Shown here: piece after piece, positions 25,154 to 62,935 of the stretch
How positions within the stretch are numbered: the first letter of the stretch is position 1
Layout: each line of letters begins with the position of its first letter
Source: Chaetoceros tenuissimus
Lineage: Eukaryota > Bacillariophyta > Thalassiosirophyceae > Chaetocerotales > Chaetocerotaceae
Length of the DNA: 64,000 nt
Assembly: GCA_021927905.1 (NCBI GenBank)
Contig: BLLK01000058.1
Coordinates: 1,178,001 to 1,242,000 of the forward strand
Direction of reading: 5' to 3'
The notes under the pieces: generated by a model
The model's input: the letters and a program-made list of their open reading frames with translations, nothing else
What the model was told of the DNA's origin: nothing
Databases searched by the model: none
Made by a program: the position numbers and the translations under genes

Positions 25154-25692
25154 TCTGCCTCGATTATAGTAAATATATGATGCCTATGGTATATTTTAAA
25201 TTGAACTAGCTGTAGAAGTAGTGATGATATAGTTTTATGTGATGAAAGGAATGCGGTTGTGTGGCAGCAAGTTCAAAAACGTCGCAGTCACAGATTCTTC
25301 TTCTTCAGATGCTTCTCCGAGCTTCTCAAGCAAGAGCTCGATTTTTATTTTGACTGGCTAGAGAGCAAAGCTAGGATGATAATCTATCTACCTGATACGG
25401 TTTGATTCGTGTTTTTGACACTGCCAAATTGGCCCCAAAAAATATCTTTCCTCACTATTTTTGTATGTTGAGATACGTTGAGGTCTAATTGAGGTGTACG
25501 TATAAATGTGACTTCTTTCCAGTTTGTGTGTGATTTCCCGCGTAAACGGCCTCTCGCCACTTTTCAACGCTCGCCACTTTTCTGTGCGCGTAGATAAACC
25601 CCAAAAAATAATCTTTCCTCACTTTTTTCTTTAAATACATTTACATAATCTAAACGTGTCCTAGCCTATCAACACTATCATAATCTTGTACA
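25154..25692. promoter_or_regulatory. Shared divergent promoter of SPX kinase and metallophosphatase
   Basis: About 540 bp between divergent start codons. It holds a direct repeat about 25 bp long (CCCCAAAAAATATCTTTCC-type, at 25433 and 25599), a 13-bp repeat ctcgccacttttc at 25553 and 25570, and TTTCCCGCG at 25534-25542, which fits the E2F consensus. The repeats are close to the phosphatase start. Their function is unknown. Confidence 0.5.
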
Positions 25693-35249: not shown

Positions 35250-37409
35250 ATGGTTGCTTCTATTACACTCTTGCTCCTAATCATAATTCATTTTGCCAGC
35301 GTTCAAGCATCAACACCTCAATGGTCATTCATAGTTATTGCTGATTGGCATGGGGTCGAATCTTTTGCTCGTGATGATACTCCAGAACAGTTTTACCTAC
35401 AACGAAAATGGCAACTTAACAGAATAAAAAGCTTATTTGAAGGTGATTTTGTGGCCTTGGTTGGAGACATGGTAGAAGGTGAATGGTACAGACAACAATG
35501 GATAGATAAATTCATGCCTGGCAAGTCTCCTTAACAGGCAGTATATGATGCAAGTGTGAATTCTTTTACTACTATTAAGAAGATTTTCAATGAGGTTGGT
35601 TATGACAAGATTTTGTACGCTCTAGGCGATCATGAAATTGGTGACAATGGTTGGCAACCAAAAAGTGACCATACTAACAGTTTAGGTCAATATCACAAGG
35701 GTTTTGTAGAAAGTCTCTACCTTGACCCAACCTCTGGAGAATACATTTACAAAAATTTGAAGCTAGGTAATACTCACATCACACCCTATGGTACACCATT
35801 CGAGTATACATCTTTTGCTCATGTGCACAAAAATATTTTATTTGTGACTATGGATGTATTCAAGCAAGTTTCTTCATCACTTTTTCAAAAGACAAGTGGT
35901 GGGATTGGTGGAAATGGAGTAGTAACTGCTGATGTCGACGGCGATCATTTGAAGTGGCTTGAAGATATTCTTCGTGAAGGCAGCAATAATCCTAGTATCA
36001 AACACATCTTTGTTCAAGGTCATGTCCCAGTAATCACACCAGTTCAGAGAAGTGCCTCCTCTTCCATGACATTTGACAGACAAGAAGAAAGTAACTTTTG
36101 GAAATTGTTGGTCAGCTATGGAGTTGATATATATTTTGCAGGGGAAGTGCATGCTAATACGGTTCTGAAGGATAAGAATTCTGATCTTCTACAAGTATCT
36201 ACTAGAGCGAACGATTTGGAAGGGCTACTGGATGTTATTGTTACAGATGATCAAATTGAGCTGAGGGCCTATAGAGATGAGAATGTAGATAGAGTCAATA
36301 AGAAAAGCTACACACAGGCCGGTGTTTTGACTGTTGATAAGACCTCTGAAATCACGAAGATATCATCAGATGGAATTCTCCATATCGTAGACTTGACCAA
36401 ACCTATTCTATATTTTGACTTTGAAGAGATTATGCTCATATCAGAGAGTTGGATCCAAGGTCTCAAGAGTAAAACCAAGCAATATCTAGATAAAGTCGAG
36501 ATGCAAGGAAATATTCTTCGTAATATAGTCCCCAACAAAGGAGAGTTTGGTCAGAACTACAATGCTCCTGTTGGTGGAGTACAGATCAGAGATGAGGGAA
36601 TAGGTGGAATATATTCGGGATTTTTTGACGGAACAATGTCTCAAATGGGAATATATTCATTGGGTCCATTCGTTGCTGGAACTATTATTTCAGTCAGTAT
36701 GTGGATCAAAACCACAGCAACAAAAGAAATGCTTCTACTTCACTATGATCGGCCATGGAAAGCAGATGCATCAGGCCTTGAGAACAGAAACATATTTTCT
36801 ATGACATTGAAAGATGGCTCACCTCGTATTTATGTCAGCAAAGCTGCAACTTTACTCTCGCAACATTCTGAGGCAATTAATGATAACGGATGGCACCAAA
36901 TCGCAGCAGTCATGCCATACAAGAGCTGCAAATTGTCTGAGGTCCTTTTATTTATTGATGGGAAAAAGGTTTCAACAAGTGTGACAAAGGATACCCCTCT
37001 TCATTTTGAAAACTTTGGACATTTATCCGTTGGAGGGGTAGGATTTGCTGGTACAGACGTACGTAATTTGTTTCCTTCATGGAAACCATTTGTAGGATAC
37101 ATAGACGAAGTATATTTGTGGCAGCGTAGGGTATATGCTAGGCAATTCCGCACAGCTCCAATGAGACGTTTCAAGCGAAGAAAAAACTCCAAATGTACAC
37201 CGATAGGTAGAGTTGTCACAATAGATCAAGTACCTAAGGTTCGAAAATGCCGTCGGAAGTGCAAGCGGACTGTCAATTGTGTTGGTTTCAAAACATCAAG
37301 TGTAGAGGGCTCAGAAGATCTACAATGCACTCTGTTTCTATCACATGCACCACATGTCAACAAAGATCGAGATACAACAGACAAGTGTTTTCTACTTTCC
37401 TCGTTGTAA
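35250..37409 (+). pseudogene. Second copy of the secreted metallophosphatase, broken by one stop codon
   Basis: It is collinear with the gene at 25693-27852, with the same length and the same signal peptide, metal motifs and LamG/PAN-like parts. Codon 95, CAA (Gln) in the first copy, is TAA here (35532-35534), a single C-to-T change. The rest stays open for another 624 codons, with no further stop or frameshift. Differences cluster at residues 45-65 and about 415-435. The loss is therefore very young, an assembly or sequencing error, or a segregating allele. If translation stopped at codon 95 nothing catalytic would be made; restart at an internal ATG (35556) would give a form without signal peptide and without the first metal ligands. 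Confidence 0.85.
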
Positions 37410-42048: not shown

Positions 42049-42589
42049 ATGAACACTGTAACCTCCATCCAGGATGTCGCTAATGCTGCAATCATGAAAG
42101 AGAACCAAAAGCTTTCCGCTGAAGCCAAGGCAGAATCATACTACATGGGTGCTATATTTTTGAACAATACGGAGCATACTTTTACTATGAAAACATTAAC
42201 TGATCACTACTGATTTTCGCATTGACGTTGGCAAACCCGACGTAATTGCTGAAAAAATGACGCTTTTCAACAGACTTCGATTTTATGAATTACTAATGCC
42301 ATCCAAAATTTGCATTGCATACCTTCCACCAAATGTTATTTCTGATATTGTGGAAGATAGAGATGTCTTTTTGGGGTCAGGTGTAGATAATTATAGATTT
42401 TGGCTCTCTCTCTTGGGTGCTACAAGGTCTGAAGGAATTACCATTGGCTCAAATCTTATCGAAGAACTCAAGGGTGATATCAAAATTGAAGAACCAAGAG
42501 ATGGTGGTTTGGGCGTATCTCTGGAAGACTTATTCTATAGACGTGGCTTTTGGCATGCTTTGACTGCGAGAAATGTTTGGCAGCTTTGA
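42049..42589 (+). pseudogene. Frameshifted hypothetical gene
   Basis: From the ATG at 42049 a frame gives 54 codons (MNTVTSIQDVANAAIMKENQ...) ending near 42213. About 20 bases before that stop, another frame opens (ITTDFRIDVGKPDVIAEK...) and continues to 42589 with good composition. A single one-base indel at about 42195-42205 would join them into about 180 residues. I do not recognise the family. The 3' end overlaps the end of the nuclease gene on the other strand by about 55 bp. It could instead be two small genes, or an intron I do not see. Confidence 0.4.
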
Positions 42590-43653
42590 TTCGAAAGATG
42601 AGCTTCTCGAATTGAAATCTCACTGTTATAAGGAGTTACAATTGAAGCAGGTCCAAATAAAAACATATTCCGTGCATGTTTCCATAACTTAAGATGATTT
42701 TCCTTGTATTCCTCCGTCCATTTCGCTTTTGCATCATCACTAACATTAGTAGGAATAAGCCATCTGGATTTCACGGCATTATAAAGAGCTACATCGTCCA
42801 TCAAATTTCCTTCGGTATCAGTGATGCTTTTTAGAAAATCAGGTACCTTTGCCATACTGTTGCCTGGATTCCTTTCGATGAAATCGCATCCCGAGAAACA
42901 GCAAACATGTGAAAGTAATTCCTTTGACCACTTGATATTATCTTTGCATATTTTGTCAGGAAATCTTGTTTTCAGCAAATCGTCAAATTTAACGTGAAGA
43001 CACTTCCCGTCTGACTTAAGATTCAAGATTACGTCACATCCGAGGCAGCATAGATCATTATCATTTGTCCAAACTAAATCAATTATCTTTTGGTGGAAAA
43101 GAGCTGCTAGTTGATGGTCAGCTTCGAATGGTGCGCCAACACAATAGATTCTACCTTCAAATCTCTTTTCCAATTCTATCTTCAAATCGTATAGTAAATC
43201 TGGTCTATTGAAAGATACGAGTTCTTTCCTCAGCTTTGCTACTTTCACCGCATTTGCCAACTCCTCATCGAACGAATCAAAATCATCTTCCTTGTATAGT
43301 TCTTCTAGTTCTCTCCTTTTTTCTTCATTCTTTCCATATCTTGAAAGATGAGCATGATTTTTTTTCAAAGACCCAGGTAAACCATCGAAAACACAGACCA
43401 AAACCCCCTCGTTTTTATATATTGGATCTAATGCATTACATATTGCGTCGATTAATCCATGCACAGGTCTTTTTGGTTCAGTAAAGAGTTGATCTATATG
43501 ATTTGGATTTCGCTTGATCATTTTTATGATAGTGATCGACATATCAATCCCAACGATAATTCGTTCTGGTGTATCTTTGATAAGCCGTTTCAATGTAGTA
43601 TTGCAATGGTTCTCACCATCACGAATTTTTTTCATTAAGTCGTTAACACCCAT
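42535..43653 (-). CDS. XPG/FEN-type structure-specific nuclease, 372 aa
   Basis: A single exon. The N-terminal XPG region has VGIDMSI (Asp37) and VFDGLPGSLKK (Asp90). The internal region has FEADHQLAAL (Glu177, Asp179), TNDNDL (Asp198, Asp200) and FSGCDFIERNPG (Asp257), so the metal-binding acidic residues of the FEN1/EXO1 family are kept. Family members cut 5' flaps or degrade DNA from 5' ends. The usual TEDSD is TNDND and the helix-hairpin-helix GIG is degenerate (NPGNSM), so it is a divergent member rather than housekeeping FEN1. It lacks a PCNA-binding tail. The final 20 residues overlap the gene on the other strand and may be a replaced C-terminus. Confidence 0.8.
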   Translation of the reverse strand: MGVNDLMKKIRDGENHCNTTLKRLIKDTPERIIVGIDMSITIIKMIKRNPNHIDQLFTEPKRPVHGLIDAICNALDPIYKNEGVLVCVFDGLPGSLKKNHAHLSRYGKNEEKRRELEELYKEDDFDSFDEELANAVKVAKLRKELVSFNRPDLLYDLKIELEKRFEGRIYCVGAPFEADHQLAALFHQKIIDLVWTNDNDLCCLGCDVILNLKSDGKCLHVKFDDLLKTRFPDKICKDNIKWSKELLSHVCCFSGCDFIERNPGNSMAKVPDFLKSITDTEGNLMDDVALYNAVKSRWLIPTNVSDDAKAKWTEEYKENHLKLWKHARNMFLFGPASIVTPYNSEISIREAHLSNQSCQTFLAVKACQKPRL

Positions 43654-44381
43654 GATTCCATATTGTAATTAGAATATTCCCTCGAGGGGTTAATTGTTGA
43701 GTGGTTGAGTTCCAAAGAAGGAAAAGATGAGGCTCTGGACGTCGTTGTCTCACATATGTCAACATATCGTGTCAATTGTGAATGAAGTCACAATTCCTTC
43801 AAGCACACGACACTATTATGTAGTATGGATGTATATGTGTAGTTTGTAGGTGCTTGGTTATGTTTTATTATGTTATATAGGTGTAGAGAAGTAAGGTTTT
43901 GTAATGAGTGGTTGTGTGTTGTTTTTTGGTGAGGGGGTGAGAATCGCCAAAAATGGAGGGTGTGCGCCCCGCAAAAAGCTATTGGACAGGATAGTGGATA
44001 ACGTTCCATCAAAACAAGCCTACCAACGTTGTATCCTACCTGGTGTATTTGTTTTATACTCATTTAGCCATGTCAAAATACAAGGGCATATTTCAAACCA
44101 ATCTTGTTTTCAAACAGAGCTAAATTATCGTGATGATTCCATTTAAAAAATATTGTACATACTTGCGTGGTATATGATCCAGGACCGCGACTCGACTCGT
44201 GAATAAATTATTTCCAACACAAGGTAAAAAGTAAAAAGTACCATACTTATGTTTGTACATAGACGTTCACATTTATCTCTTTTAGGAACACCACATTTGC
44301 AATTTTGGACTAATAGCTAGACTACATTGTTTTGTACAACTCTTAGAAGCCATTGCAATTGAAGACTCGAGCAACTACGAG
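43654..44381. promoter_or_regulatory. Divergent intergenic region upstream of the giant gene
   Basis: About 730 bp between the nuclease start and the proposed start of the giant gene. A G/C-rich patch around 43930-43975 (ggagggtgtgcgccccgc) stands out from the AT-rich surroundings, with an inverted CCAAT box (attgg, 43981-43985) just after it. These are plausible promoter elements for one of the two genes. Confidence 0.4.
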
Positions 44382-47300
44382 ATGAAACAAGGCTTTCAAC
44401 GTGGTATGTTCTTCTTGAGAACAGGAACAAAGAAAGACAGCAAGAACGAGAAAAACAAATTGACTTTTGATATTTCAGAGCATCATTGGATGATCGACGA
44501 ATTGAGAAGAATTGAAGATAAGTATTGTCAGCCAGGTGTATCTTCTACGATTCCTGGTATTATGAGGATGCCTTCCGCCAGGGAGACTTCCTTGAAGCTC
44601 ACTGCTGAAAAGAAGAGGAAAAAGGTAAGACGAAATAGTAATATGAAATATATACTAAATTGATAGTACAACTACTTTCAATCATGAGTTCTATCTATCC
44701 ATGCTTTGGACCCTACAAATACTTGTATATTCCTGTGAATATCATATTCTAATCCTCTCTTTCTTTTCCTTCATAAAAAAGAGTTCCCCCGTCATCATTG
44801 AAAAAGAACAAAACAAAACAAAAAATAAAGACTTCAAAGCCATCTTGACCAATGTAAACACTAACGGAACTGACAAGGATACATTTGACGCATACGGCTC
44901 TGGTGACAAGCGCCAAGATGAAACTGAAGATGCTAATACTATGAAGAAGGGAGAGGAACACACCGGGCCAAGTGCTGCTGTTGGAGAGGATAAGATCTTG
45001 CTGCTATTTGATTGTACTGATAATAAATCTGTTCATATCGATGGCCATGGAGAAGAGAAGGACAAGAGGGATGCCAGAGGAGATAACGAGAAGGATGTAA
45101 ACAACAAGATTGGACATGGGAACGAGAAGGATGTTGACTTTGTTGCTTTTAAGTCTGCTTTAGAGATGCTCTATATTGCCGATGCGGCTAGTTGTATGAA
45201 GACAGAGGGAACTTACACCGGACCAAATGCTGTTGAAGAGAAAGAAGATTTGCACCGTCAATTGACGATTTTAGCTGGTATGACTCGTGAAAAAGAAGGT
45301 ATTGATATTGATGGAGCTTTGCCTAGCCACAATGCTAGTATGACAGGTTCCAACCCTTCATGTTCTAGTAACGGTTCTATTCGGAATGCAAGGAAGATAC
45401 GCGAGACAGAGACTTTAGGTCTATCACAGCCAACACCAACTGCAGTAGTCTTTGGATCATTTCTGGCAAAGGCACTTACTTCGCTCTTTGAATTTTTTCA
45501 GGGAAACCGTCTGAACAAGCTTTTTCCATCTATGATCCTATTGCTTTTCCCTCTTGCCTCTGTTGCTGCATCTAGTACTACTACCACGTCCATTTCTATG
45601 CACAAGTCTTCACTGTGTGATATCAATGATGCGGTGCCTTTCAAGCAAATGGATGCAACTTTGGGAGAGTGCAAATACCAGTGCATCTCTTTGCGTACTT
45701 GTAGCGGAATGCAGTATGTTGATCCGAAACAATGTATTCTCTATGATGTCCCATTTTCTTCAGTAAGTATTTGATCATGACTTAAATAGTTGAAACATGC
45801 TTTGTCTCAATTTTGTTTTCCCTACTCCAGATGAAATCTATTGATAATGACGCACTTTCATGTGGAATCAAGGAGAAGATTTTTGCTTATGAAGTTGCCT
45901 CTAATCAACTTGATGCTTTTGTTTATCATTTTGGATCCAAATGTGGCGAAGCAATCGACTATGACCATGTCACGAGAGTGACTGGTTTAGACTCTTTCTC
46001 TGCTTGTGAGGACAGATGTTTCGCTATGGAAGATTGCTATGCTTTTGACTGGAAAGGGTCATCCAAGAATGTTTGTAATATTCTTGAGTATGTTGTTGTC
46101 GAAGGAGATATCTTGCCTGTTCTTGGTCTAGACATTAAGTCAGATCGTGTATGTGGAGTGAGAATTCAAAAAGACAAGAGTAAAGCAGGTGACAAGCACA
46201 GTTTTGGTCAACATGTCAAAAATAGTGATACTCTAGATCCTATTGGTGAGATCAAAGATTCCAGAAGCTTGGAAACTGCTCCAGCATCTGTAGAGTCGGA
46301 ATCGGAACAAGATGATTTTGCATTGGATGTTTCAAAATCCTTTCAAATGAGCTTGGAATCATTTATGCTTCTTTCTAGCTTCAAGTTTGATGATTCAAAC
46401 CGTGAATGGTGTGTAATGTCCGACACACTTAACGAAGACTCCAGAATCAAGATGTGGCCATGTCCAGACGTCAAGAATTTGAAACATTGGTTTTACATTG
46501 ATACTATGGATCGTTTGAGATTAAGTGTGAGACCTGATCTTTGTCTTCGTTGGCAAGAAGGAACCAAGCTACTTTTCAAAGATTGCGATTTGAACGGTTC
46601 TCCCAACTTCAAATTTGATTTTAGTGATGGAGCTCTTCGTGCAAGGAAGGATAATAACTCACTCTGGCTACTTGGTGTGAAGACTGAGAACAAGTATGGA
46701 TTTCTTCGTTTGTTCAATCAAACTAATCATGGTGATAATCCTTCTTTGAATCTATGGTACACCATTTACGCCAGTGAAAGTCCATCTTTAGTTCCTTCAT
46801 CTCAACCAACGTCTCAGCCAAGTTCCAGCCCATCCTCAAAACCATCCCCTTCCCCTTCGCGTAGACCAAGCCCTCAACCTTCCCCAAGTCCTTCCGCAAA
46901 ACCGACGCGTCTTCCTTCCAGTGAACCTTCCATGCTTCCGTCTTTGCTGCCAAGCATCTCTCCATCGGACGAACCTAGTTCAACACCTTCAGATCAACCA
47001 TCTTTAGATCCTACATCACTGCCGTCATTTGAACCATCTTTGCCGCCTTCTTCAGAGCCGAGTCTCTTTCCGTCAAGTGTCCCATCGGATCAGCCTAGTT
47101 CACTTCCGTCATCTACGCCAAGTGATATCCCATCAGATATTCCATCAGGTAAGTGCCATCATGACTGAGAATTTCGCACATTTGACGATCATCTCTCACT
47201 TGAATTAACCAACTCCAATATCTCGTATTCCAACCCAAAAAATAGACGTACCTTCAGACGTTCCAAGCGACATTCCTTCAGATATTCCATCAGGTAAGTG

Positions 47301-50300
47301 CCATCATGACTAAGAAATTCGTACCTTTGACCATCATTTTCACTTGACTTAACCAACTTCAATATTTCGTATTCCAACTCAATAGGTGTACCTTCAGACG
47401 TTCCAAGCGACATTCCTTCAGATATTCCATCAGACGTACCATCTGATCAACCAAGTTTGCTTCCGTCATCGATGCCATCAGATATTCCGTCCAACATTCC
47501 ATCTGATCAACCAAGTTTGCTTCCATCATCGATGCCATCAGATATTCCGTCAGACGTACCATCTGATCAACCATCTTCACTTCCGTCATCGATGCCATCA
47601 GATATTCCGAGCGACATTCCATCTGATCAACCAAGTTCACTACCGTCATCGATGCCATCAGATATTCCGAGCGACGTACCATCTGATCAACCAAGTGTGC
47701 TTCCATCATCGATGCCATCAGATATTCCGTCAGACGCACCATCTGATCAACCATCTTTACTTCCGTCATCGATGCCATCAGATATTCCGAGCGACGTACC
47801 ATCTGATCAACCATCTTCACTTCCGTCGTCGATGCCATCCGATATTCCTTCAGATATTCCTTCAGATCAGCCTAGTTCATTACCGTCGTCGATGCCATCC
47901 GATATTCCTTCAGATATTCCATCTGATCAACCAAGTGTGCTTCCGTCGTCGATGCCATCCGATATTCCGTCAGACGTACCATCTGATCAACCAAGTTTGC
48001 TTCCGTCATCGATGCCATCAGATATTCCGTCAGACGTACCATCTGATCAACCAAGTTTGCTTCCGTCATCGATGCCATCAGATATTCCGTCAGACGTACC
48101 ATCTGATCAACCAAGTTTGCTTCCGTCATCGATGCCATCAGATATTCCATCAGACGTACCATCTGATCAACCAAGTTTGCTTCCGTCATCGATGCCATCA
48201 GATATTCCGTCAGACGTACCATCTGATCAACCAAGTTTGCTTCCGTCATCGATGCCATCAGATATTCCGTCAGACGTACCATCTGATCAACCATCTTCAC
48301 TTCCGTCATCGATGCCATCAGATATTCCGTCAGACGTACCATCTGATCAACCATCTTCACTTCCGTCGTCGATGCCATCCGATATTCCGAGCGACGTACC
48401 ATCTGATCAACCATCTTCACTTCCGTCGTCGATGCCATCCGATATTCCTTCAGATATTCCTTCAGATCAGCCTAGTTCATTACCGTCATCAATTCCATCC
48501 GATATTCCTTCAGACGTACCATCGGATCAACCAAGTTTGCTTCCGTCGTCGATGCCATCCGATATTCCTTCAGATATTCCATCGGATCAACCAAGTTTGC
48601 TTCCGTCATCGATACCCAGTGACATTCCGTCAGATATTCCATCGGATCAGCCGTCAGTTGAGCCATCTATTTGCAGGGATGAGGAAGGATGGATTGTTGG
48701 AGGTATTCTTAATGAAAACAATTCGTATGCTGGTCTTACTTGTGAACAAATTGCTTCCGCGAACTCTGACTCTTGGTGCGATGCAATTATGGCACAGTCT
48801 AATTCTACATATCTTGGTAAATCTGTAGTTGAGGCTTGCTGTGCTTGTCAAGGAAGTACCTACAAGACAACATATCCTTCATCCTGTCCATCTGACAAAC
48901 CATCACTTTCCAATAGTCCAACTGTAGAACCAATACCATCATCTCAGCCGACTGACTGTATTGATGAACCTGGATTTCTCTTTTATAACGGAGAGAATGA
49001 TGATATAGGACTTGGATGCAGTGACTTGATTGTGAATTTAGATGAAGATATGTGCAAGAGATTTGAGAACGTTGATTTTCATGGGAAGACCGTTTTAAGT
49101 GCATGCTGTATTTGTGGAGGAGGAATTCATCAGTCTCGCGAGCCAAGTTCCTCTCCATCTGAATCCCAGATGCCTTCTTCAGAACCATCTATGTCCGTTG
49201 CACCAAGCGACAAACCCAGCATATTACCGTCTTTAAACCCTACTGTCTCTTCTCAACCTTCCAACTTTCCAAGTAGTTACGGTGCTACCATCATTGATGG
49301 TAAGCCATGTAGGTATAGTCGAGAGTGTTTTTCTTCATTCTCATCTGAAGTATATGACGATAATGCATGTTTGAAAGACGCGGAGGAGACAATCGGACTT
49401 TGTAAACCTGGAGTAAGTTCCTAATGTATCTTTTTCATTTTTAATAGAATACAGAACCTAATATATCTTCAGGTATTGCACAGACAAGTTACCACAGTGA
49501 ATTTTCAACTATTGAAGGATGAAAAATATTTCTCAAAAGACTTGACCTATTATCTTATTTTCGAGGAAAAAGGGAATCTCCGTCTTAAAAATTCTACCGA
49601 TGTTGATGTTTGGTCGGCGATTGACAATTTCCCAGAGGAAGGATATGTTGATAACACATGTTTTCTGCAAAGAAATGGAAACTTAGTCATATTTGATAGT
49701 ACGAATAAACCACTTTGGACAAGTTCACAGGACTTGCTCGAAGTGTGTCATGGAAATTGTCTCAGCGACGATCATTGTACTCCAGGATTGATTTGTTATT
49801 CTCAGACTTCTAGACGACGTCTTTTGGAAGATACTAGTGACAGTCCTTCAGATCAACCTAGTTCTGTTCCGTCATCGATTCCATCAGATATCCCAAGTGG
49901 TGAGTAAATGAAGAATAGTTCTCTCTTTCCCTTTTTTCCGTCATTTACACTTTACTAAGTTTGTTCTTTCGTTTCTACTTGTACTCAATAGACCAACCTT
50001 CAGATATTCCGTCAGACGTACCATCTGATCAGCCAAGTTCACTTCCGTCATCTATGGCACCATCCGATATTCCGTCAGACGTACCATCTGATCAACCATC
50101 TTCACTTCCGTCATCGATGCCATCAGATATTCCGTCTGACGTACCAAGTGGTGAGTGAAAACGATTCTAGTTCCACTGCTCAATTATTTCTTGACTTGAG
50201 GTTGTGTGTTTTGCTACAGCTTTTGTTGATGACAATTTAATCGATTTTCTGCCTTTCATTGTTTTCTATATGACTTTCTCTTTTCTAACTGCGTTTCTAT

Positions 50301-53300
50301 AGACGTCCCTTCCGATGCTCCATCTGATATACCATCGAATCAGCCTTCTTTGCTTCCGTCATCGATGCCATCAGCTATTCCAAGCGACAATCCTTCATAC
50401 CAAACAAGTTCTGTTCCGTCATCGATGCCATCAGATGTTCCGTCAGACGTACCATCTGATCAACCATCTTCACTTCCGTCATCGATGCCATCAGATATTC
50501 CGTCCGACGTACCATCTGACGTACCAAGTGGTGAGTGAAAACGATTCTAGTTTCACTGCTCAATTATTTCTTGACTTGAGGTTGTGTGTTTTGCTACAGC
50601 TTTTGTTGATGACAATTTAATCGATTTTCTGCCTTTCATTGTTTTCTATATGACTTTCTCTTTTCTAACTGCGTTTCTATTAATATTACATAGACGTCCC
50701 TTCCGATGCTCCATCTGATATACCATCGAATCAGCCTTCTTTGCTTCCGTCATCGATGCCATCAGCTATTCCAAGCGACAATCCTTCATACCAAACAAGT
50801 TCTGTTCCGTCATCGATGCCATCAGATATTCCGTCAGACGTACCATCTGATCAACCAAGCAATATGCCCTCTGTAACCCCGGTCCCGGGTTGTTCTGGAC
50901 AAAACGATGCTTCTACAAATTTCTGTATAGACCCTTCCTTTACCGATTCATCGCCCAAAATTGGTGAAATCACAGACAAAGGACTAGATGCTTTTAGTCT
51001 AATCGAAAATTTGGGTCTTTGTGAAGGAAATTGTGACACAAATTGTGCTGACGGTCTTGTATGTATTTCACCAGACCAAGATGGTAGTGTGAGGGGATGC
51101 TATGGAATTTCAAATGCAAATTATAAATACTGTACATACCCCATTTTGGACAATTCCAAGAGTAGTTCGGGTAGCCTTGACTTTACAGAAAGCTTTTTCC
51201 GGGTAACCAATACGGGAATTCTACAAGTGTACGGCTTAAGGACTGATTTAAGCGTTGCTTCCGAGAAATTTTTGGTTTGGGATAGCAACAATTTAAAAAA
51301 TTCAAATCCAGTCAGCGTGAGCAATGACTTCGAACACGACTCAGACTTTTCGATATCTACTGCAAGAGATATTTTTTTCTCCGGAGACTTTACGCACCAT
51401 AACTTGATCATGGACATCGTTGAAAACGAGAGCAGCGGGCTTCATGTGACGACATCATCTATTGAGATACATGGAAGTACATCAAAGTCCTACGAATTTG
51501 CCTCTCCGATTGATGTTAATCAAAGTACTATGATTTCATTTAACGTGACTCTAGGTAATGGTGTAAAAGCAATTGCATTATGCGTTGACGTTGTAAGGGT
51601 AGCAAGTGACTCTAGTACCGATGGTGGGTTATCAACCAAATGCCTAGCTATAGGAGGGACAGCATCTTCTCCCTCATCTTCAGAAGAAGCGCCATATGAA
51701 GGCATTCTCTCTGACTACGTGTCAAGTGATACCACTGTTGAAGCGGGAATCAAAACATCAATGGAATATAAGCTTTCAGAAATGTTCCCAACAAGACTCG
51801 AAACAATCAAATACATTGGTATTATTCAAGTAGTAAATGAGAATGATGCTTCCGTTACATCCTCCTTGATCGAAGATTTGTTGTTTGCTGACAACAACAA
51901 TGACTCTCAAGTCAATAGAAAGCTAACGTCGAGCTCTGAAATCTGCGTCTGTGGTCCCAATGAGCTTGCTTCAACCCAGAGAGCTGGTCTCCATCACACG
52001 TGCTCAGATGCATTAGATTTTTGCTCTTCTGCCGAAGATAAATTGAAAGAAATCACAAAGAACGAAAATGAGTTTTGCTCTTCCCACTTTGAATGTAGAT
52101 CGGGTCTATGTCAAAATGACAAATGTACATCAAGGGTAAGTGAACATTCACAGCTCATTGCCATTACTACTGCAATTTTGAAGTGGCACTTATTTCTAAT
52201 GTTTTTGTTTAGAGTATGAAAATTACAGAGCGAGTCTTCCCCGGGAAAGATCTCGAGATTAAAAAGGTCTTTTCTATCAAGAACAGAGAATATACAGATA
52301 GATACATTTTTGTGTCGAGCTGTGATAATGGTGGGCAAGAACTTGGCTACTCAAGTGATGCCAATGATCTAGGATCTCTTTTTTTTAGAGGAGATGATGG
52401 TGCAACACTTCACTCTGTTCGGTGCGGTACAGCTAAAGCAGTCCATCTCGATGGTGGATGTAGCGATTACACTCCTATCATAATGTATGACACAGACCGT
52501 AGTAAAACTCATCAAAAATGGATCTTTACGAGTGATGGACAAATCCGGAGCCACAAGTGTAACTCTTGGAACTTAAGTGGCGATCGAGCTCCTGCAGATC
52601 GTGTTGATATTCCGCAACTCTACCTTGCAAGCCCTAACACAGGTGATTGGAGAAAATGGAATATTGACTACAAAGGGACGGCTCCTAAACTGAGTAATTG
52701 CGAAGGTGGCTGCTGGAATAATGATCACTGTAGGTCAGGCTTGATATGTGAAAAAGGCATTACAACAGACGTTACATCTGTAGCCGGATGTTTTGGCATT
52801 CCCGAAGCTGGCGCCGGTTACTGTTCTGAACCAGGTCTGCTCAGGAATATTGTATGGCATGGTGCATATGGTGATCAAAATACATTTATTGGTTCTGAAG
52901 GAGGGTCTAATGTAGACGACATCAATGGTATACAGTTGTTTGGTAATGTGTGGAAGGCTTATCAATTGGAGCAGCCGTATAGTGTCACAGGAAATACCCA
53001 CGTATCTTTCAAATTCAAGATGATCAAAGAAGCAGAAGGTCATGCTATTTGCTTTGATGATGATGATGTTGCTGATACATATGGTGGGTTCCAAAAGCGC
53101 TGTATTGTATTAGCAGGAACTGAATTTGATCACTGGGATAACCATCATGTACACAAAGTCGTTTTGCATAACAGAAATCAAACTGTTGTAGACACCGAGA
53201 CAGGTTCAGTAGAAGCCGTGGTAGATGTAAAAATTGGACATTTTTTCAATAGAAAGGGAAAAACAATTAAGTTTATTGGGTTTGTGCAAGATAATGATGC

Positions 53301-56300
53301 GGCCCCTTTTGAGGGCATTTCGAGTTTTAGAGACATTCAAATTTTTGAGGTTGAACCAGTAAGTTGAGAAATCTATAGGATTATAAGCGATTTTTGCATA
53401 TTTGTTTACTGACAAATTTATTTTCTCCTTTTGCGAAAAGAACTCTGCATGGGAAATTATTCCAAAACCCGAGTCTGAAAAAGATTTTGATGCATCATCG
53501 GTTGATGTTTTATCTCAAGCCGTCTCTTACAACCGGGAATTCCAGGCTGTCGTTATGAACGAATGTTTTGAGTCCGACCGTACAGAAGAAATATCTCGGA
53601 ACATGTATCTTCGTTCTCAAACCTCATTCACAACTCCTCTCCGTAAATTGAGATGTACTCGACAGCATTGTGGTCGTATGGAAGTCTATACTGACATCAA
53701 ATCAGGTCCCCAGTTTATGGAGAACAGTGCGCAATTTACTATCTCGCAGTTTACTGGTACGCTTGGAGAACAAAGTGCATCCTTTAAAAATGGCTCATTG
53801 CAGTATGGAGATTTTTCGAAAACGTTTAGATGCCCTGGGGAAACACTAGCTACAAAATTTATAGTCAATACCAGTGATTCCAAAGAAACTTTCCGCATCA
53901 AAAATAGAAGAGTTAATTCATACCTTACAGTTAGAGGGTGCACTAATGGAAGTATGATTTTTGGATCTAGTGAGGACGGTTTGAACACTAGATTCTATTT
54001 TGGTAATGATGGAGAAGTACTACACTCTGCTTTGTGTGGCGATAGTAAAGCTGTATATCTGGAAGGCGGAAATTGTGATAACTTTAATGTATTTATGTGG
54101 ACAACTCATGGAGGCAGTAATCAGAAGTGGTCCTTTAATGACGAAGGAGAATTAAAGGTTCAAAAATGTTTGTCTCGATCAGCTGTATTATTTTTTAATA
54201 GGCTTATCATGTTTCCTTCAGATGGTTTTTGGCTTGCTTTTTCCAATTGGGAAATAAAAAATCGGAGGACACAAAGTATCCGTGAAATGTCTTGCAGTGA
54301 TGTGAAACCTAATGCTGGGCTCAAAGTTCATGGCAATGTGTTTGAAGAAAGTAGATATATTACAAGTTCTTACGGTAGTGAATATACTGAGTGTCCTAAT
54401 GGATATATGGTTGCAGGTTTCGAATGCAGGGATACATTTTGTAACAAGTTGAGACTTCTTTGTAAAATGGTTGAGGTAAGACAGACTCTCAAACAGATCA
54501 AACTCTCAAACAGATCAAACTCTCAAACAGATCAAACTCTCAATATATGTTTTCATGTGTTTCATTTAGATTGTACCAAGGTATACGATTAGAACGAGTT
54601 TAAAAATTTACACAAAAGCAAATGATTGGGGTAGCGAGACCGATGTTCTTCTCATACGCAACACTGAACTAGCTATAACTAACCAAATGAGAGGAAAGAG
54701 AGAATGTTTCAGCGAATACGGGCAAAATTTGTTTAGAGGGGAAGGACTTGGTTTTCCGTTATCTAATGAGGAAGTTTTCTATTTTAATGGTGAAGCGGAC
54801 GTATTTGTGAGATACTCCATCAATATCGATGGAACTTTAGGAGTAAGGTCTGAAGAATCATTTTCGGATGGTAATTATAACACTACTTTCAATAGTGTCA
54901 GCAAACCTATTGGTTTCGGGCAATTTGATAGAAGTGATGAATTCAGTGATAGTGATGGAAATCTTTTGGTGGCAGCAGTAAGTGCTGCATCCACCAAGTC
55001 CCCAAAGGAACTTGTCAATAGTGGTGCGATTGCTTTCTACACAAGGATTAATAGTACTTGGCATTTAAAAGGGGAAGTATACGGTCAAGAAAGTGAAGAC
55101 AAATTAGGTCTTCTATCAGTTGAATTCATCGGTCAACACGATTTGAAAGTTGTCTCAGATAATTATTTTATTGATTATGTCAGTGACAAACTGGTAAGTA
55201 GGAAGGAATTCAACGCTATCATGCTTTCTCAATTTACCTCTCTTACCCTTCGTTTCTTTGATCAAGAATGAGTGCCCGTTCCATGCTCATATGGATGATG
55301 GCACCTGTATTTGTGATGAAGGTTATATTGCAGTGAATAATGAAGATACATTGACAAGGAGAGTAATTGGCGCTGATTACTGCGTGTTAGCATTTTTCTC
55401 TACTCTTTTGGTCCACGAGGTTGAAAATGAACAGAGTTTAATCTCTATAATAATCAACAATAACGCTTTACAAAACATTAGCATCCAGCAGTTCAGTGAG
55501 GGATCGAACAACCCTGAAGATGTAGGCCTAATTTTGAATGAAAACATAATAGTCACAGAACAGCAGGAAAGTACAACAGTCACTCTTATCGGCTTAAATC
55601 CAGGACGTCGATATCTTACAACAATTACTCTAGGAGAAGAAGAAACCGTGAACTTTCCTTTAGTCCCAAGTTGCTCATGCTCTTCTTTGACGAACAATGA
55701 TCAAACCGGTAGACCAATGAATCTAAGACTTATCCAAGACAGAGGTCATGTTATTCTAGAGTTCACTGATAATTCCAAGTGTGAAAGTGGGTTTTCTTTC
55801 ACTAGATTTCTTGGATATGCTGAATTTATTGACGATAGTAAACATGCAACCAGTTTTGCTCCTGACTTTTTGTTTCAAGCTCCAAAACAGTGTAACTCCA
55901 TAATTACTCCAGAGACTGAAGCCAGTGATGATTTGACTATCTCTAGATTGCTTGTTGGACAAGTTTATTCATACTGTGTGAGAGCCATCAAGGAAGGAAA
56001 TTACATGGACCTGACACCAAATGCGCAGGAACTTCGAGCACTTTCTTCTTCATCGGCAATTTGTGAAACTCATAGGATTGCATGGGAGTCTTCCATATCC
56101 GGATTCATATCAAGTACACCTGATGCAGGTTCATTGGCAATCAAAAATGTTCATGTGCACTGGCAGCTTTTATCTGAAGATGGAAGGCCCCTCAGTTGTT
56201 CAGGGTGCATAGGTTCTACGAAAACAGACGACGGCGGCTTATTTAGCATTGATTTTAACATCCAAAACGAAGCTGATCTCTTTCAATCAAATGATGCTGA

Positions 56301-59300
56301 TATACCAGTGAACTTATACTTTTCAAAAACTACAACGAGCAATGGAACTGCTTTCTCTCACCGTTTCCTCTGCAATCAAGGTCAAGATATTTGTGACGAT
56401 GTTGCAGGGCACACTGTGTATTTGAAACATCTTCACTTCGATTCTCCAGTACATATTTATGATGATACAAACCTCCCATTCTCTGGTAAATTGTTAATTC
56501 ATGGGACCAACTGTCCGATAATGAATGCCAGGGTGTGCCCCTTGCACAAAGCAAGTTCCGCTCAAAGCCTTGAGGTATTAGTAGGAGACATTTGCGTTGA
56601 AACTAATTCATATGGAGAGTACACCGCCCCTGTTGTGATAGGCAGTGTAATCTATGGAGTTAGAATAGAATACGAAGAGCATATTTTTGAAAGAACTTTT
56701 GAAAACAAATGGAATTATGAAGCAGGAGTAACAATCACTGAGGGAGGATTCTATGGAAAGAATGATTTTTACGACATGTCTAAAGCGCGCTTGATTATCC
56801 ATGGTTAGTTCATTCATTTTTTCTTAACTTTAACTCAACATCATTTCTCACAAATCCTTTGTTTATGCAGTTGCTGGAGGACAATGCAACCATAGTCTTG
56901 GAACAGCTTCGATTGAAATTCGTATCAGAGGTTGTGATTCAAGCCTTCACGATGGTGGATATCTTGATCAAGACTTTACTCAATCTTCTTTCGAAAAAGT
57001 TTACAATGCAATGCCTGCTCACTTCTTGAATGTCAGGATTAAAGAAGTGGACGCTGGTGACGCAAGTGCAGTCATAACGAATTATTTTTTGAGTGAAGAC
57101 CCGCGTTCAATCAATCTATTGAGAACAGCAGAAGAGGACCAAGCACTGAATACCGTTATAGAAGAAGAGGAAGAATCGACTAGTAATACTGGAACGCCAA
57201 ATGAAGGACTGGATGATATAGAGTCAGTGAAAACTGCGGAAACCCTTAAAGAAACTGTTAGATTCCAATATGACGGAAATCTGAAGATGGAAGTGTCTGT
57301 AGTAGGGGATCGTCTCGAATGCGAAAAAGACCCTGCAACAATTTCTGGAGATTCATTTCATGTCGTTGATTATATGCAGCTCATTGATATCTCAGTCAAA
57401 CTGAAATTTGAAATCATACGAAACACTCTTTTCTGCAATTTAGTAGATACTGACAAACACAAACTCCTTATCGAGTCAAATCTAGGAATGGATAAAAATG
57501 CTGGTTTTGACCAATTCTATAATGCACTTGGTGATGATCAGGAAAAGAATTTGATTTCCAAATGTTCTACAATAGCACCACCAAATGATGACGGAGTCGT
57601 AAGATCCGCAGACGGTCCATGCTTATTGAATATTAACAGTAGCAATTCTGGAAGTGGTTTGGATATAAAATTGACTGTTGGGAGACCAAATATTTCTTCT
57701 CCATATACAAAAAGAGTTAACATCAGAGTACAAGGTGCTGATACTGATGTGCAACACAGAGCAGATTTCTTTATTGTCGGCCTATTTTCAAAAGGTCCAA
57801 AGGAATCCTTCGCTTTGCCGACTCACCAACCAATAATGGTCTTACGAGATCCACCGGGTAGTGGATCCTTTGCTTCATACGAAAATATAAGGACAAGTAT
57901 ACGAATATTTGCAACTGATGACAAAACAGGGACAGAAGGGAAAATCAAAATCAAAAGTATGTCGATTCTCATTTCTATTATAACACTTTCACTTCGTTTC
58001 TCACATTCTTCTGCATTTTCTAGCTGGTTTATCATTAGACCCAACATTCAAATTATGCTCGGGAGGAGGATTTGGTGCTGTCATACTTGGCTGTAAAGAT
58101 CCCGTCGCCGGTGAAAATGATGGCGCTGTAGAAACCGAATACGAAGTAGAAACAGGCACAGCGAAATCGAAGAGAACGACGACAAACAAATTTTCTACTA
58201 CATGGAGTTATTCCACTTCTACTGATGCAGGAATGTAAGTGACCCACGGTATCTCCAACATAAATTCTGCTAAAGTACTCACTCTTTATTGGATCTTGTT
58301 TCAGAGCGGGAGAGGAGAGTGATATATTTGTGGTACCGAACTTGAATGTTGCGTTTGAAGAAGTTCTTATCGTTGATTGGTCGAATGAAACATGCGCTGC
58401 TAAATTAGACGGTGACGATTTCCCTTCATCAGTCATTTTCGACCTGGAATCAGAGAGCAGTAAACCCGCGCTCTCTTTTTATTCTAGATATCATATAGTG
58501 ACCACGAAGATGGCAGAAATATCCAACGCTATAGATGCCAAAGGGAGAGAAGTGGGGCTTGTGTTGAATTCAACAAACGACGTAGGTGATGATGTTTGCT
58601 GCGTTACAGGGGAAGGCTACTGTTTAGAAGATGAACCCCGAAGAAAGTGTACAGATGATGATTATGTGTATGAACTAGTGGAATTTGATGAGCTTTCCAA
58701 TGCTGGTGATGCGTGGGTTGATATTCTCGAAGCCGCAGATGCAACAAAGACTCAAGCTATCGACAACGGCCAAGAAAAATCAATTTTGAATTGGTTCGAA
58801 AGCCAGAAAGAAAATCAGTATTTTAATAGAGCAGGTTATTACGAAGAAAAAGTTGACTTGGACATGGCATTTTCTGGACTAGCACCAGAAAGTCTAACAG
58901 ATGGAGCTTTACCTTTGGATTACTATGCAGACCCTATTCAAGAAAATGCAAATCTCCAGACTGCGAATAGGTTGCAGTTTAGTGGTGCCGGCGGATCATA
59001 TCAATTGACATTTAACAGAGCATCATCTGTTGAGTTTAGCACCATGACTTGTGAAAATGAAAATATCATGAAGGTGAGTTCACACACAGTTTAATATGAT
59101 TCAAATAGATCCACACACTAATTAGAATGATTATAGTTTCTTGATTGGATGAACGGAATCTTAAGCTTGAGTGATCCCGGAACTGCAGTAGCTACAGGCA
59201 TTGGAGAAGCTTGGAACCTATACTCGGAACTAAAGCTAACACATCAAACTGGTATATCTCATAACAAGCAATTAGGCAGAGGATTACAGAAATATTTGAA

Positions 59301-62069
59301 AAACTTACAAGCCAGGTATAAAATTTGGGAGAAAGAGGAAGCAAAAGCGAAAATAGAAGCTGAAAGAAAGAAGAAATTAGGAGGAAAGCAGGGTGCAGAA
59401 GATAAGAAGAAAAAGCTTGAAACTTTGAGAAAAGAGAAAAGACAATATGATTCGAAAATAGAAAAAGATCCCTCCAAACAACTTGTCAGACAGGATGCAA
59501 GTTCCAGCTCTGATTTACTGAACAAAAGAGATATTGAGAAAGCTATGAAAGAAAAGAAGCGACAGGAGAGAAGTGACCCGGCATTAAAGCAAAGGAAAGA
59601 ATCAATAGCTGCTGAATCAGCTGGTAAGGCTCAGAAGGGATCGAAAGGTACCTCCCTAGGTAAAAAAATTACAAAATCTCTCGGTATGGCTATGGGATCT
59701 GCACCAGTTCTTATTGGATCCTATATTGCAGGCTGTGATTACAAAACAACATCAGAAGCCGAACCGGCTGAATTGGAATATGAGCTTTCTGCGTTTGGTA
59801 TTGGGGTAACAGCAGGTTTTAGTGGAGGTAAGTATTGGCATCTAAAAACATGGATATGTCTATCATAGCTATTTCGGAAACTTACTTTATTGCTTGGAAA
59901 GATTTCCAAGTTGTTGTTGAACATGAAACAGTGAAAACAGACACAGAAGAAGAGTCAACAAGTATATCTGTCACTTTCACCGATGCCGACTTTGATGACG
60001 AGTTTGTTGTTGATATGTATTATGATGAATTATATGGAACATTTATATTTAATACTGTTTCTGGAAGAAGTAGGTGTATGTGGGAGAAGGGAACAGGAAG
60101 GGCTGAGGACCCTTCACTAGTTGTATTGGAGTCGGCATCATCCTATATTTTTCCCGACGAATCGATGATATTTGAAGTGGAGATGAACAACATTGGGAAG
60201 ACTCAAGATAGTTTTTTCTATCTTGCTCAAGAACATGCACAAAATAGACCCTTGGATGTAGTTTTAGTTGGGGGTGACGCTTCCGGAATAAATACAAATG
60301 GGAATGTGATTCATCTTTTCAGAGACAACCCGGTTATAAGGCAGATTAAAGTGGAAAGAGGCATTACTGGGTACGAATTTCCCCCAGTCCAGCTTATTTT
60401 GAAGAGCAAGTGTGAAAGTGATTTAAACATGCGTCAGGATGATGTTAGTGGTTTGTATGTCACTGTGCCTTTATACAACCATATAAATGAGGCAGGGGAA
60501 CCGGTTCTAAAATGGATTGAACCTTGTCCTAAGATATACTGGAGTGGAAATTTGAAAAGGGAAAGAACGTTCTTGGTTAACAAGAATACAGTAGATGCAA
60601 ACAACGGCGAAATGTCTATTCCAATTCAGATATTCAATCCATTAGCGACTAGTAGTGGAAAGAACATCACAGATTTGAGAGACGATGGGAAACTAGAAAA
60701 CATACGACTTCGCTATAGAAGAGTCGGTGACATATCTTGGGATTCAGCATTAATTGCTCAGACAATATCTCCCTCAAATAGTCCGACAGACTTGGACTTT
60801 TTAAGAGACGAGCTAGAAGTGAACGAAGATCCATTTGGATTTTCTTCTCTTGTATGGTCATTAGACACAGTTCAACAAGGCCAGGTTGAAATTATGCTAG
60901 AGATTAAATGCTCAGCTCCTGCAGGTGCACCTGAGGAAGTCATGGGGTCTAGAGAATCTGTCATTACTGGTTTCTTTGATATTGAACCGCCAGATCAATA
61001 TGGGAGAAAAGCCTTACCTCTTCGACATGATATTCTGTTTGGCGAAGAGCTCGAAGTCCTATTCACAGAAGAAATCAATTGTCAGAGACCATTTTCTTTT
61101 TCAATCAATGTTGATATAATTGGTACCAACTACATTGGGCTTAGAATAGGTGAAAATATCCAAGTGAATTGTCATCAGAATACTTTAGGTTTTAATTTCA
61201 AAAACTTAGACCAAGAGCTCATTGCAGGAAAAGAATTCGAAGTAGAAATACAACATGTCATGGATAGAAATTATAACGAGATTGAGCTGCCAATTAAATT
61301 CACGAAGAGGTTCGCTGAGCTTGATTTCGATAGCGCGTCCATAACATTCAAGTTTCAGGTAGACGCAAATTGCACTCAAGAAAGTGTCGAAGAAGATTCC
61401 AGTGAAATCAGATCCACAATCACTAATAGCTTGGGGCTTGATTCTGACGACAGAATTCAAATTCACTTGTTGACTTGCAATGTCGACGGAATGATTGATG
61501 CCGATGTAAAAATACTCCCAGATACAGACGGAAGGAGGCTGAGAGCAGTAGAGAAAAAGGAGGCGCAATTTTTATCGAAGTCGACATTGGAGCTAATGAA
61601 CATACTCAAGAACAACATAAATAATGGCAACAATGGTAATCACGGGAGAAGATTGCATGTAAATTCAGAACCAAGGCTAAATGCCTATTCGATCACGTCC
61701 ATAAATGTCATTCCATCAAACGAAGACAAGATGAAATTTAGAAGTACTACAAAGGAATTAGCCGAAGAAGAAAGACTGAACAGAGAAAGTCTTGGAATTG
61801 TCGATGATCCAGAACAGGCTGAGCCTGTGCTGGGCAACGAAATTAAGGAATTAGAAAGGGAATTAAAAGAGTCTATCGCAAAAGAAAAGATTGAAGAGAT
61901 CAAAGAACTGAAAGATTCAATGGAAAGAGAAAAGAATGAGGAGATGAGAGAATTAAAAGACAACATGAACAACATGATGATGATGCAAACGGTATTGATC
62001 CTTGTTGTGGGTTCCGTCCTGGGGACTATATTTTACTTACAAAGTATGAGAAGCAAAAACATTGCTTAA
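44382..62069 (+). CDS. Giant multidomain cell-surface lectin/adhesin-like protein, 18 exons, 5,379 aa
   Basis: Exons: 44382-44624, 44782-45762, 45831-47148, 47246-47293, 47386-49412, 49473-49899, 49992-50150, 50303-50530, 50694-52135, 52213-53358, 53441-54475, 54570-55193, 55267-56803, 56871-57956, 58024-58234, 58305-59073, 59137-59827, 59902-62069. All 17 junctions are GT-AG and keep one frame. Parts: hydrophilic N-terminus; hydrophobic segment near residue 325; two PAN-like domains (358-404, 445-495); R-type lectin-like (584-724); Pro/Ser/Asp repeats (725-1290); two Cys modules ending CCxC (1290-1440); bulb-lectin-like domain (1540-1640); more repeats (1668-1870); C-x3-C modules (about 1630, 1920, 2453), each before a LamG-like part; a duplicated beta-trefoil-like unit in exons 10 and 11; EGF-like ECPF...CICDEGY (3228); carboxypeptidase-regulatory-like sandwiches in exons 13-14; Lys/Glu coiled coil; C-terminal membrane helix (about 5354-5373). 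A surface or wall-associated adhesive protein is inferred. Least certain: the start, the 157-nt first intron, and the exon 17/18 junction, where a 41-nt alternative exists. Confidence 0.78.
47149..47385 (+). repeat. Duplicated intron plus 48-bp mini-exon
   Basis: The introns 47149-47245 and 47294-47385 are clearly homologous (both start gtaagtgccatcatgact and end with a tcgtattccaac...atag stretch). The 48-bp exon between them codes DVPSDVPSDIPSDIPS. The repeat period is about 145 bp. The two introns differ at a number of bases, so this event is older than the one at 50.1-50.9 kb. Confidence 0.9.
47461..48660 (+). repeat. 60-bp minisatellite coding for the PSD stalk, 20 copies
   Basis: Twenty consecutive 60-bp units with no indel, each coding a version of LPSSMPSDIPSDVPSDQPSL. 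Units at 48001-48300 are nearly identical, with two exact copies (48001-48060 and 48061-48120), while outer units vary more, as expected of expansion from the middle. The dense Ser/Pro suggests an extended stalk, heavily O-glycosylated or phosphorylated. Copy number is likely to vary between strains. Confidence 0.97.
50151..50857 (+). repeat. Recent tandem duplication of an intron-exon unit (about 380 bp)
   Basis: The unit at 50151-50530 (152-nt intron plus exon 8) is repeated from 50531 (163-nt intron plus the start of exon 9). The two introns are nearly identical over their whole length; the second has an extra taatattacat-like insertion just before its AG, and the exon parts agree almost base for base. 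Exon boundaries are all phase 1, so adding a unit never shifts the frame. Confidence 0.95.
54491..54541 (+). repeat. 17-bp tandem repeat inside intron 11
   Basis: Three perfect copies of aaacagatcaaactctc within the 94-nt intron 54476-54569 of the giant gene. Confidence 0.95.
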
Positions 62070-62113: not shown

Positions 62114-62935
62114 CTAGATTTCACCCATCATTTTCAATGTGTAATCCCGAATAATTTCCATTTCATCAATTTCTGCATACGGATTCTCCTTCAAGTATTG
62201 AGACGGAGTGATACCCATATCATTCTTCATGTTGAAAGCTCTGATTCCCTTTTCTTCGAGGATGGTAAAGATAAACTTCCTTGAGAGGCTGAAATGAAGT
62301 GCAAGCTCTGTGTAGAGCATACCTGTCGTCATTGTTGATGTTTTTCATCCAGTTGTGCACTGCTTCTTCGTGAGAACAATTGTAAATATCGACCCTCTTC
62401 ATCTCCATAAGAAGTTGAGATGACAATCAATTTTGTATCCTCAACAACACAAAACTGAAGCTCTACATCCCGCGGAACGTTGCAAATAGTCAAGTTTGTA
62501 TTACGTGCAAATGCGTAGTCTCTAACTTGTCTACACCTTGGAGGAAGAAAGACGCTTGACAGATTGCACTGTTGAAATGAAAGTTCTCCAATAACCTCTA
62601 AATTGATTGGTAGCTTGATATAAACAAGACTGTCACAATTGAAGAAAGCACAGTACTCAATTCGAACAACAGTGTTTGCAAAAATGACTTTTTTGCTGTT
62701 GAAGCAATGACTAAAAGTATATGCTGGAATCTTTGTGATGCCTTCGACCACTATTATCTGCTGCCATGATTGTCGCTCTCGCCAGTAATGTTTACATTCA
62801 TCGGATAGAGGCCATTCTTCCCATCCATCCATCGTTTTATAACCAATATGGAGTTCATGCCACCACTCTTCTTCTAGATCATAATCGAAGAGTTCCGTCG
62901 ATAGTCACGAGATTGTCGACAGTAGCTACCCTCAT
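62114..62935 (-). pseudogene. Decayed BspA-type LRR_5 protein gene
   Basis: From the ATG at 62935 the frame opens with MRVATVDNLVT, then a frameshift at about 62895 leads to LEEEWWHELH and the long piece containing SDECKHYWRERQSWQQIIVV, followed by LRR_5 repeats (for example VIFANTVVRIEYCAFFNCDSL). Two further frameshifts, near 62400 and near 62280, separate this from NDDRYALHRACTSFQPLK and from a C-terminal ITPSQYLKENPYAEIDEMEIIRDY segment. All four pieces occur in the same order in the LRR_5 family that I recall as abundant in Chaetoceros. Three frameshifts in about 270 codons make it a pseudogene unless the sequence has errors. Confidence 0.8.

Follow-up and report, generated by a model that had tools for sequence, protein, structure and literature searches.

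A giant, lectin-like, predicted membrane protein of the diatom Chaetoceros tenuissimus is encoded at one of about 25 colinear family loci with conserved R-x-L motifs and probable module exchange

Among described diatom proteins, Silicanin-1 and the silicalemma-associated proteins (SAPs) come closest to the protein analyzed here, as they have a C-terminal helix followed by a cytosolic tail and an R-x-L motif, and a cut that would free the luminal part has been proposed for them (PMC5525289, PMC5647440), as it is here for the giant protein of C. tenuissimus. As far as the available text of the reports goes, R-x-L is described as a cleavage motif of biosilica-associated diatom proteins (PMC5525289, PMC5647440, PMC9650480), and one of them states that its role remains to be proven (PMC5647440). 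The differences are large: Silicanin-1 has 426 residues against 5,379 and is NQ-rich, the SAPs are serine-rich, in both the R-x-L follows the signal peptide, unlike in the giant protein, and the accessible parts of these papers do not mention lectin, FN3 or CnaB-like modules (PMC5525289, PMC5647440). The R-type (ricin B) lectins (PF00652) provide a second comparison, since the predicted domain 3 of the giant protein passes the curated cut-off of this family, with the difference that three copies would be embedded in a giant membrane protein. According to the part of the article available, the Gal/GalNAc lectin genes of Entamoeba, an unrelated organism, form surface lectin families with gene conversion (PMC3125142), to which the present family may be analogous. 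Surface proteins of the FN3 and CnaB types (fibronectin, Gram-positive pilins and SdrD) share the fold predicted for exon 13 of paralog P6, at an identity of only about 8-19%. In the open-licence papers searched, no named protein with this domain order was found, and neither 'lectin' nor 'cell surface' occurs in the main text of the C. tenuissimus genome paper (PMC8613185).

The gene lies on the + strand of the window, i.e., the whole stretch of 64,000 nucleotides that was analyzed, and its features are collected in Table 1. The spliced exons amount to 16,140 nt with a single terminal stop (5,380 codons when the stop is counted), and the introns are 60-163 nt each. An earlier note, made from the sequence, had proposed a single 5,380-codon gene of 18 exons with 17 in-frame GT-AG junctions, and every one of these figures was reproduced exactly. 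The same note held that a chain keeping its frame in this way was unlikely by chance, and this was borne out when one fixed set of splice-site thresholds was applied to the true frame, the other frames and 20 dinucleotide shuffles. The true strand and frame could be traversed with at least 16 introns, all three reverse-complement frames failed within 381 nt, and the 20 shuffles failed without exception, none getting beyond 675 nt. One shifted + frame failed immediately; the second was traversed with 17 introns, which presumably reflects a splice into the true frame. The G+C content along the 64-kb window was 0.36-0.43. An antenna protein of this genome matched fucoxanthin-chlorophyll proteins whose structures are known. 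The giant gene is flanked upstream by an XPG-I nuclease-like gene (42535-43668, - strand) and downstream by a gene for a BspA-type leucine-rich repeat protein (62329-62904, - strand), and two further genes of the window (25684-27849 and 35535-37406) each contain a laminin-G/concanavalin-like domain, one of them also having a metallophosphatase domain.

Six probes placed along the gene were searched through the 41,027,912-base genome (68 contigs). Parts of exons 10, 13, 14 and 18 were found at 25 loci, the small Cys modules at 24 of them and the N-terminal lectin region at 20, and the order and orientation of the probes agreed at all 25 (one match per probe and locus, copied by hand). The locus spans between the outermost matches were 9.9-20.2 kb and summed to 347 kb, or 0.85% of the genome. 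The giant gene is one of about 25 colinear loci and not a lone oddity. Two partial copies with C-terminal parts only were left out of this count (G000:C34:3675441-3677421 and G000:C13:602966-609955). Moreover, family-type N-terminal lectin matches at G000:C5:22788-23252, near the end of a contig of 24,083 bases, and at G000:C6:21398-21862 are perhaps further copies cut by the assembly. Two tandem pairs in the same orientation were observed, at G000:C44:1291039-1326400 and G000:C16:2221760-2255974, and the copies of a tandem pair were close in exon 18 (P8-P9 and P10-P11, dS 0.27-0.28). Six paralogs, P2 to P7, were modelled; five had 4,157-5,782 residues and P4 had 4,071, as it starts at a contig end that cuts it, and these models may hold errors. 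The N-terminal match of copy P8 contains a stop. No relatives were confirmed on viral contigs or on bacterial and archaeal contigs.

The exon boundaries were further compared with a gene finder and with the paralogs. The gene finder took its codon weights from the other open reading frames of the window, used hand-set splice weights, and was not fully independent because its background composition was drawn from the introns of the giant gene itself; it recovered the start and the stop, together with all 17 donors and 15 of the 17 acceptors. The two differing acceptors were 47257 for intron 3, inside a PSD repeat, and 59868 for intron 17. The latter was set aside for 59901, which was backed by all six paralog models and by stretches of homology that start there in P2, P3 and P6. 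Paralogs lacking the intron read through five of the 17 junctions, namely 5 (P2), 11 (P2), 12 (P6, P7), 14 (P5, P6, P7) and 16 (P2, P4); junctions 3, 4, 6, 7 and 8 fall in PSD repeats, and so lie outside this comparison, and for junction 1 the support is that the exons of P2, P6 and P7 are arranged similarly. At junction 17, the metagenome protein P0001, 93% identical to exon 18, has 25 extra residues that may be a stop-free 75-nt intron translated by the gene caller. Collectively, the sequence data confirmed that the gene is real and was drawn correctly in the earlier note.

Table 1. Position of the predicted features of the giant gene, in nucleotides of the window
Feature	Position	Strand	Details
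Whole giant gene	44382..62069	+	18 exons, 17 GT-AG introns, 5,379 aa
N-terminal extension ahead of first hydrophobic segment	44382..45519	+	exon 1, intron 44625-44781 and 5' part of exon 2; little conservation; putative start codon
Mosaic block common to the window gene and P7 (C33)	45448..47135	+	1.7 kb, 84.2% nt identity, intron 2 included
First hydrophobic segment LFPSMILLLFPLASVAASS	45520..45576	+	residues 328-346; hydropathy 1.8
PAN-like module 1	45640..45747	+	Pfam PAN_1 E=0.068, 13.5 bits, below cut-off 21.4
PAN-like module 2	45963..46079	+	Pfam PAN_1 E=0.018, 15.3 bits, below cut-off 21.4
Linker R-x-L (RSL) after second PAN	46263..46271	+	residue 553; R-x-L in 4/5 comparable paralogs
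R-type (ricin B) lectin-like domain 1	46401..46694	+	Pfam E=2e-4, 22 bits vs cut-off 29
PSD stalk 1	46779..48671	+	includes introns 3 and 4; from sequence
Two small Cys modules (CRDEEGW... and CIDEPGF...)	48672..49124	+	found at 24/25 family loci
B_lectin-like domain	49548..49733	+	Pfam PF01453 E=1.1e-4, 23 bits vs cut-off 32.4
Linker R-x-L (RRRL) before stalk 2	49815..49826	+	residues 1654/1655; kept in 4/6 paralogs
PSD stalk 2	49842..50899	+	includes introns 6-8
Linker R-x-L (RKL) before exon 10	51917..51925	+	residue 2219; 6/6 paralogs; flank identity 0.19
R-type lectin-like domain 2	52453..52683	+	Pfam E=4e-4, 21 bits vs cut-off 29
Conserved module 'GNVWKAY...EGHAICFDD'	52819..53358	+	family alignment
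R-type lectin domain 3	53888..54175	+	Pfam E=1.9e-8, 35 bits, over cut-off 29
Exon 13	55267..56803	+	weak EGF-like start, FN3-like, two CnaB/carboxypeptidase-regulatory-like sandwiches
Exons 14-17	56871..59827	+	no credible Pfam match; exon 14 present at 25/25 loci
Exon 18	59902..62069	+	Ig-like sandwiches, beta-alpha-beta-beta-alpha-beta unit, long helix, membrane helix
R-x-L (residue 5202), juxtamembrane loop 1	61533..61541	+	kept in 21/21 sequences
R-x-L (residue 5240), juxtamembrane loop 2	61647..61655	+	kept in 21/21 sequences
C-terminal transmembrane helix	61977..62033	+	residues 5350-5368; hydropathy 2.06; then short tail with basic residues

The outer half of the predicted protein carries the lectin-like modules. 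The R-type lectin assignment made earlier proved firm: the exon 11 copy passes the Pfam cut-off, and the copies of exons 3 and 10 fall short of it; in exon 10, the lectin was the only Pfam match. These predicted lectin domains may have lost sugar binding. For PAN (PF00024), the earlier proposal found some support in relatives and not in the window itself, where both modules stay below the cut-off: among nine metagenome homologs scanned for PAN and FN3, two were over it (P0053, 21.9, and P0054, 24.7) and P0052 and P0050 scored 21.0 and 13.6. The domain first taken as bulb-lectin-like remained under the Pfam cut-off, and a match to the NCBIfam putidacin-type lectin (E=7.6e-8) gave 32 bits with a cut-off of 275, no NCBIfam match being over its cut-off. 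Fifteen pieces that together take in most of the gene apart from the PSD stalks gave no Pfam match to laminin G at E<=1, and the LamG-like module proposed before was not upheld. The PSD-repeat stalk, on the other hand, was supported and turned out to be two stalks. Introns 3 and 4 (47149-47385) are almost identical in sequence and are separated by PSD exons, and the same holds for introns 7 and 8 (50151-50693); the stalk seems to lengthen by duplication of exon-intron units.

The base of the protein was examined through predicted folds and profile searches. In the AlphaFold model of exon 13 of paralog P6, FN3 and CnaB-like domains were found, with the FN3 fold and the CnaB/carboxypeptidase-regulatory fold; the carboxypeptidase-regulatory-like sandwiches of the earlier note were thus recovered as two CnaB-like sandwiches. 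The model also supports the presence of fibronectin-III-like domains, which had been missed. The FN3 profile (PF00041, cut-off 25) gave 15.2 bits in the window gene and 25.3 in the homolog P0030, the one homolog of the nine over the cut-off, and it matched three of 12 family members, with a best E of 0.0011. In the last third of the gene, exons 14-18, no credible Pfam match was detected (best E 0.03 in the window), and 22 relatives of exon 18 gave a best E of 0.0052, to unrelated families. Profile searches of the PDB with two family alignments, A2 and A1, returned no match for A2 and one for A1, at E=0.48. The AlphaFold model of exon 18 contained Ig-like sandwiches and a juxtamembrane unit. 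The predicted beta-alpha-beta-beta-alpha-beta order of this unit was compared with the topology of SEA domains; no SEA domain appeared in the Pfam listings and the structure matches hardly cover that part.

When the copies were compared in detail, the degree of divergence changed abruptly along the genes. Between the window gene and P7, identity dropped to 0.3-0.5 on both sides of the shared block; the dS of the tip (residues 310-720) was 0.25, and it was 2.8 or saturated in every compared non-repeat module outside. With other block limits, the lowest values outside the tip were 1.2 and 1.5, in the PSD stalks. The PAN part of P6 was 76% identical to that of the window gene, and P3 shared with the latter a piece of 181 bases at 74%. 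Other pairs were close elsewhere: the small Cys modules without the stalk showed dS of 0.49 (P6-P7), 0.94 (P5-P6) and 0.87 (P5-P7), with exons 13, 14 and 18 of the same pairs saturated or above 3, and P3-P5 had diverged little from the B-lectin through exon 13 (dS 0.46-0.95), with exons 14 and 18 and the Cys modules saturated. In addition, P6 and P7 shared the tip at dS 0.82 and a piece of 389 bases at 82% near the 3' end. Overlapping stretches, those below 150 bases and those in PSD stalks were dropped from the comparison of shared stretches. In exons 14 and 18 no exchange was seen, as these were never close in the seven pairs compared by dS. Such pair-specific blocks are probably best explained by gene conversion or recombination.

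The Nei-Gojobori dN/dS of five usable pairs, two of them with dS above 2, was 0.115, 0.202 and 0.092 in exon 18 and 0.146 and 0.12 in exon 13, five more pairs being saturated. These codon comparisons show purifying selection on parts of the base. In the tip, the single pair formed by exon 3 of the window gene and P7 gave 0.56. A tree of exon 13 was built with 12 of the 25 copies and 36 of the 39 metagenome proteins, and near metagenome relatives, some perhaps of the same species, paired separately with the window gene, P2, P8 and P16, which shows that these copies are no artefacts of the assembly, more than it dates them. None of the 12 placed copies fell in one clade made up of 14 metagenome rows. 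Against exon 13 of the window gene, the 13 copies outside the tree were at most 44% identical in their best matches, and the 14 clade rows 44-52%. It is likely, from these sequence comparisons, that the family has spread to other lineages.

The R-x-L motif was retained in both juxtamembrane loops in the 12 copies of this genome and nine metagenome proteins that could be counted (of 22 rows, one was too short), although the loops vary in length and sequence. In the linkers, one of the six paralogs was not comparable at residue 553 and one had no R-x-L there, and at 1654 two of six were without it. As a control, the same scoring was applied to each of the 400 a-x-b motifs, in parts of the protein other than the PSD stalks where flank identity is low. 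R-x-L ranked highest, narrowly by count (five of nine kept, vs 51 of 1,140 over all motifs), and K-x-K was next, with four of 12 kept, in a stretch rich in lysine. Of the five R-x-L, those at 1654 and 1655 overlap, and when they are merged the count is four, level with K-x-K by count and higher by fraction. The site at 553 is outside this count. R-x-L was also kept in six of six paralogs at 3592 and 4773 (4784 in the numbering of the gene-finder model), inside conserved domains and so uninformative on linkers, and most of the 19 R-x-L of the protein are not conserved linkers. The first one past the hydrophobic segment, at 553, is about 200 residues downstream, away from the pro-peptide position of frustule proteins. 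As judged from this pattern, the conserved R-x-L fits a precursor that is processed for the wall or surface better than the roles suggested in the earlier note, i.e., chain adhesion, setae, girdle attachment or mucilage.

At the N-terminus, 327 residues precede the first hydrophobic segment, which is predicted to be a signal peptide or a signal anchor, and such a length is odd for a signal peptide. It is rather unlikely, in our opinion, that exon 1 and the early part of exon 2 belong to another gene or stay untranslated, the protein beginning near the hydrophobic segment. This arrangement would fit the methionine found inside the segment in the window gene, P6 and P7, the methionine about 20 residues upstream of it in P2, and the N-terminal 300 residues, nearly unalignable with those of P7 (amino acid identity of the extension, 0.24). 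However, stop-free stretches were present upstream in P2, P3, P5, P6 and P7, with a short exon 1 in the models of P2, P6 and P7, and the hydrophobic segment of P3 has no methionine. The extension of P6 (G000:C48, about 332668 to 334200) contains ten in-frame copies of a 51-residue unit, and a similar unit is carried by P7 and the window gene, which also speaks for translation. At the other end, the terminal membrane helix claimed before was found as a C-terminal hydrophobic helix. Basic residues stand before the first hydrophobic segment and after the C-terminal one, which would fit both flanks being cytosolic. Should the long leader be translated, the two termini may both lie in the cytosol until the protein is cut, and about 5,000 residues would then loop out on the other side of the membrane.

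Our preferred reading, which we consider reasonably probable, is that of a giant membrane protein of the secretory pathway that binds glycans at the surface or wall, is cut at R-x-L, and comes from an exchanging family of about 25 genes. The C-terminal helix would hold the protein in the membrane; the outer half would present PAN and R-type and B-type lectin-like modules on proline-serine stalks, above a base of FN3-, CnaB- and Ig-like sandwiches and the juxtamembrane unit. Its probable place of action is the cell surface or the cell wall, where it would bind glycans, and a cut at the conserved R-x-L would free most of the ectodomain into the wall or medium. The genes would swap modules, probably via gene conversion or unequal recombination, with the base under purifying selection. 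A related but less probable proposal is that of a mosaic family of giant lectin precursors, polyproteins that would be cut at several conserved R-x-L linkers, yielding pieces of lectin, stalk and scaffold for the wall or for release, whose modules, reshuffled among the about 25 genes, would give a changeable glycan-recognition coat facing bacteria, viruses or mates. The var families are an analogy for such a mosaic multigene system.

The membrane helix and the adhesin-like make-up, with lectin and FN3/CnaB/Ig-like modules, would equally suit an adhesin or receptor that is never cut and keeps its entire ectodomain on the plasma membrane, binding bacteria, other cells or mucilage, and an exchange of modules between copies is what a recognition family could show. 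We regard this as a minority possibility, since R-x-L, which would need some other explanation, is retained where the flanking residues vary. Large recognition families are common in gametes, and among the Foldseek matches there was one to a Chlamydomonas mastigoneme protein (9b4h; rank 38, E=1.4e-5, TM-score 0.19), so a gamete- or flagellar-hair-related protein of the sexual phase, not of vegetative cells, was also considered. Like the higher-ranked matches to titin and integrin, this one reflects a generic Ig-like resemblance, and a sexual-phase protein seems to us improbable.

Among the new results, the pattern of R-x-L conservation and the exchange of modules stand out as the strongest, and the function as a glycan-binding, R-x-L-cut surface or wall protein is a reasoned proposal. 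A giant protein with several R-x-L sites would allow the hypothesis of cutting at R-x-L, called unproven in the available text of PMC5647440, to be tested. Little is known of the way in which diatoms assemble and diversify their outer surface, and this family, which takes up close to 1% of the genome, offers candidates for surface recognition and wall assembly that can be tested directly.
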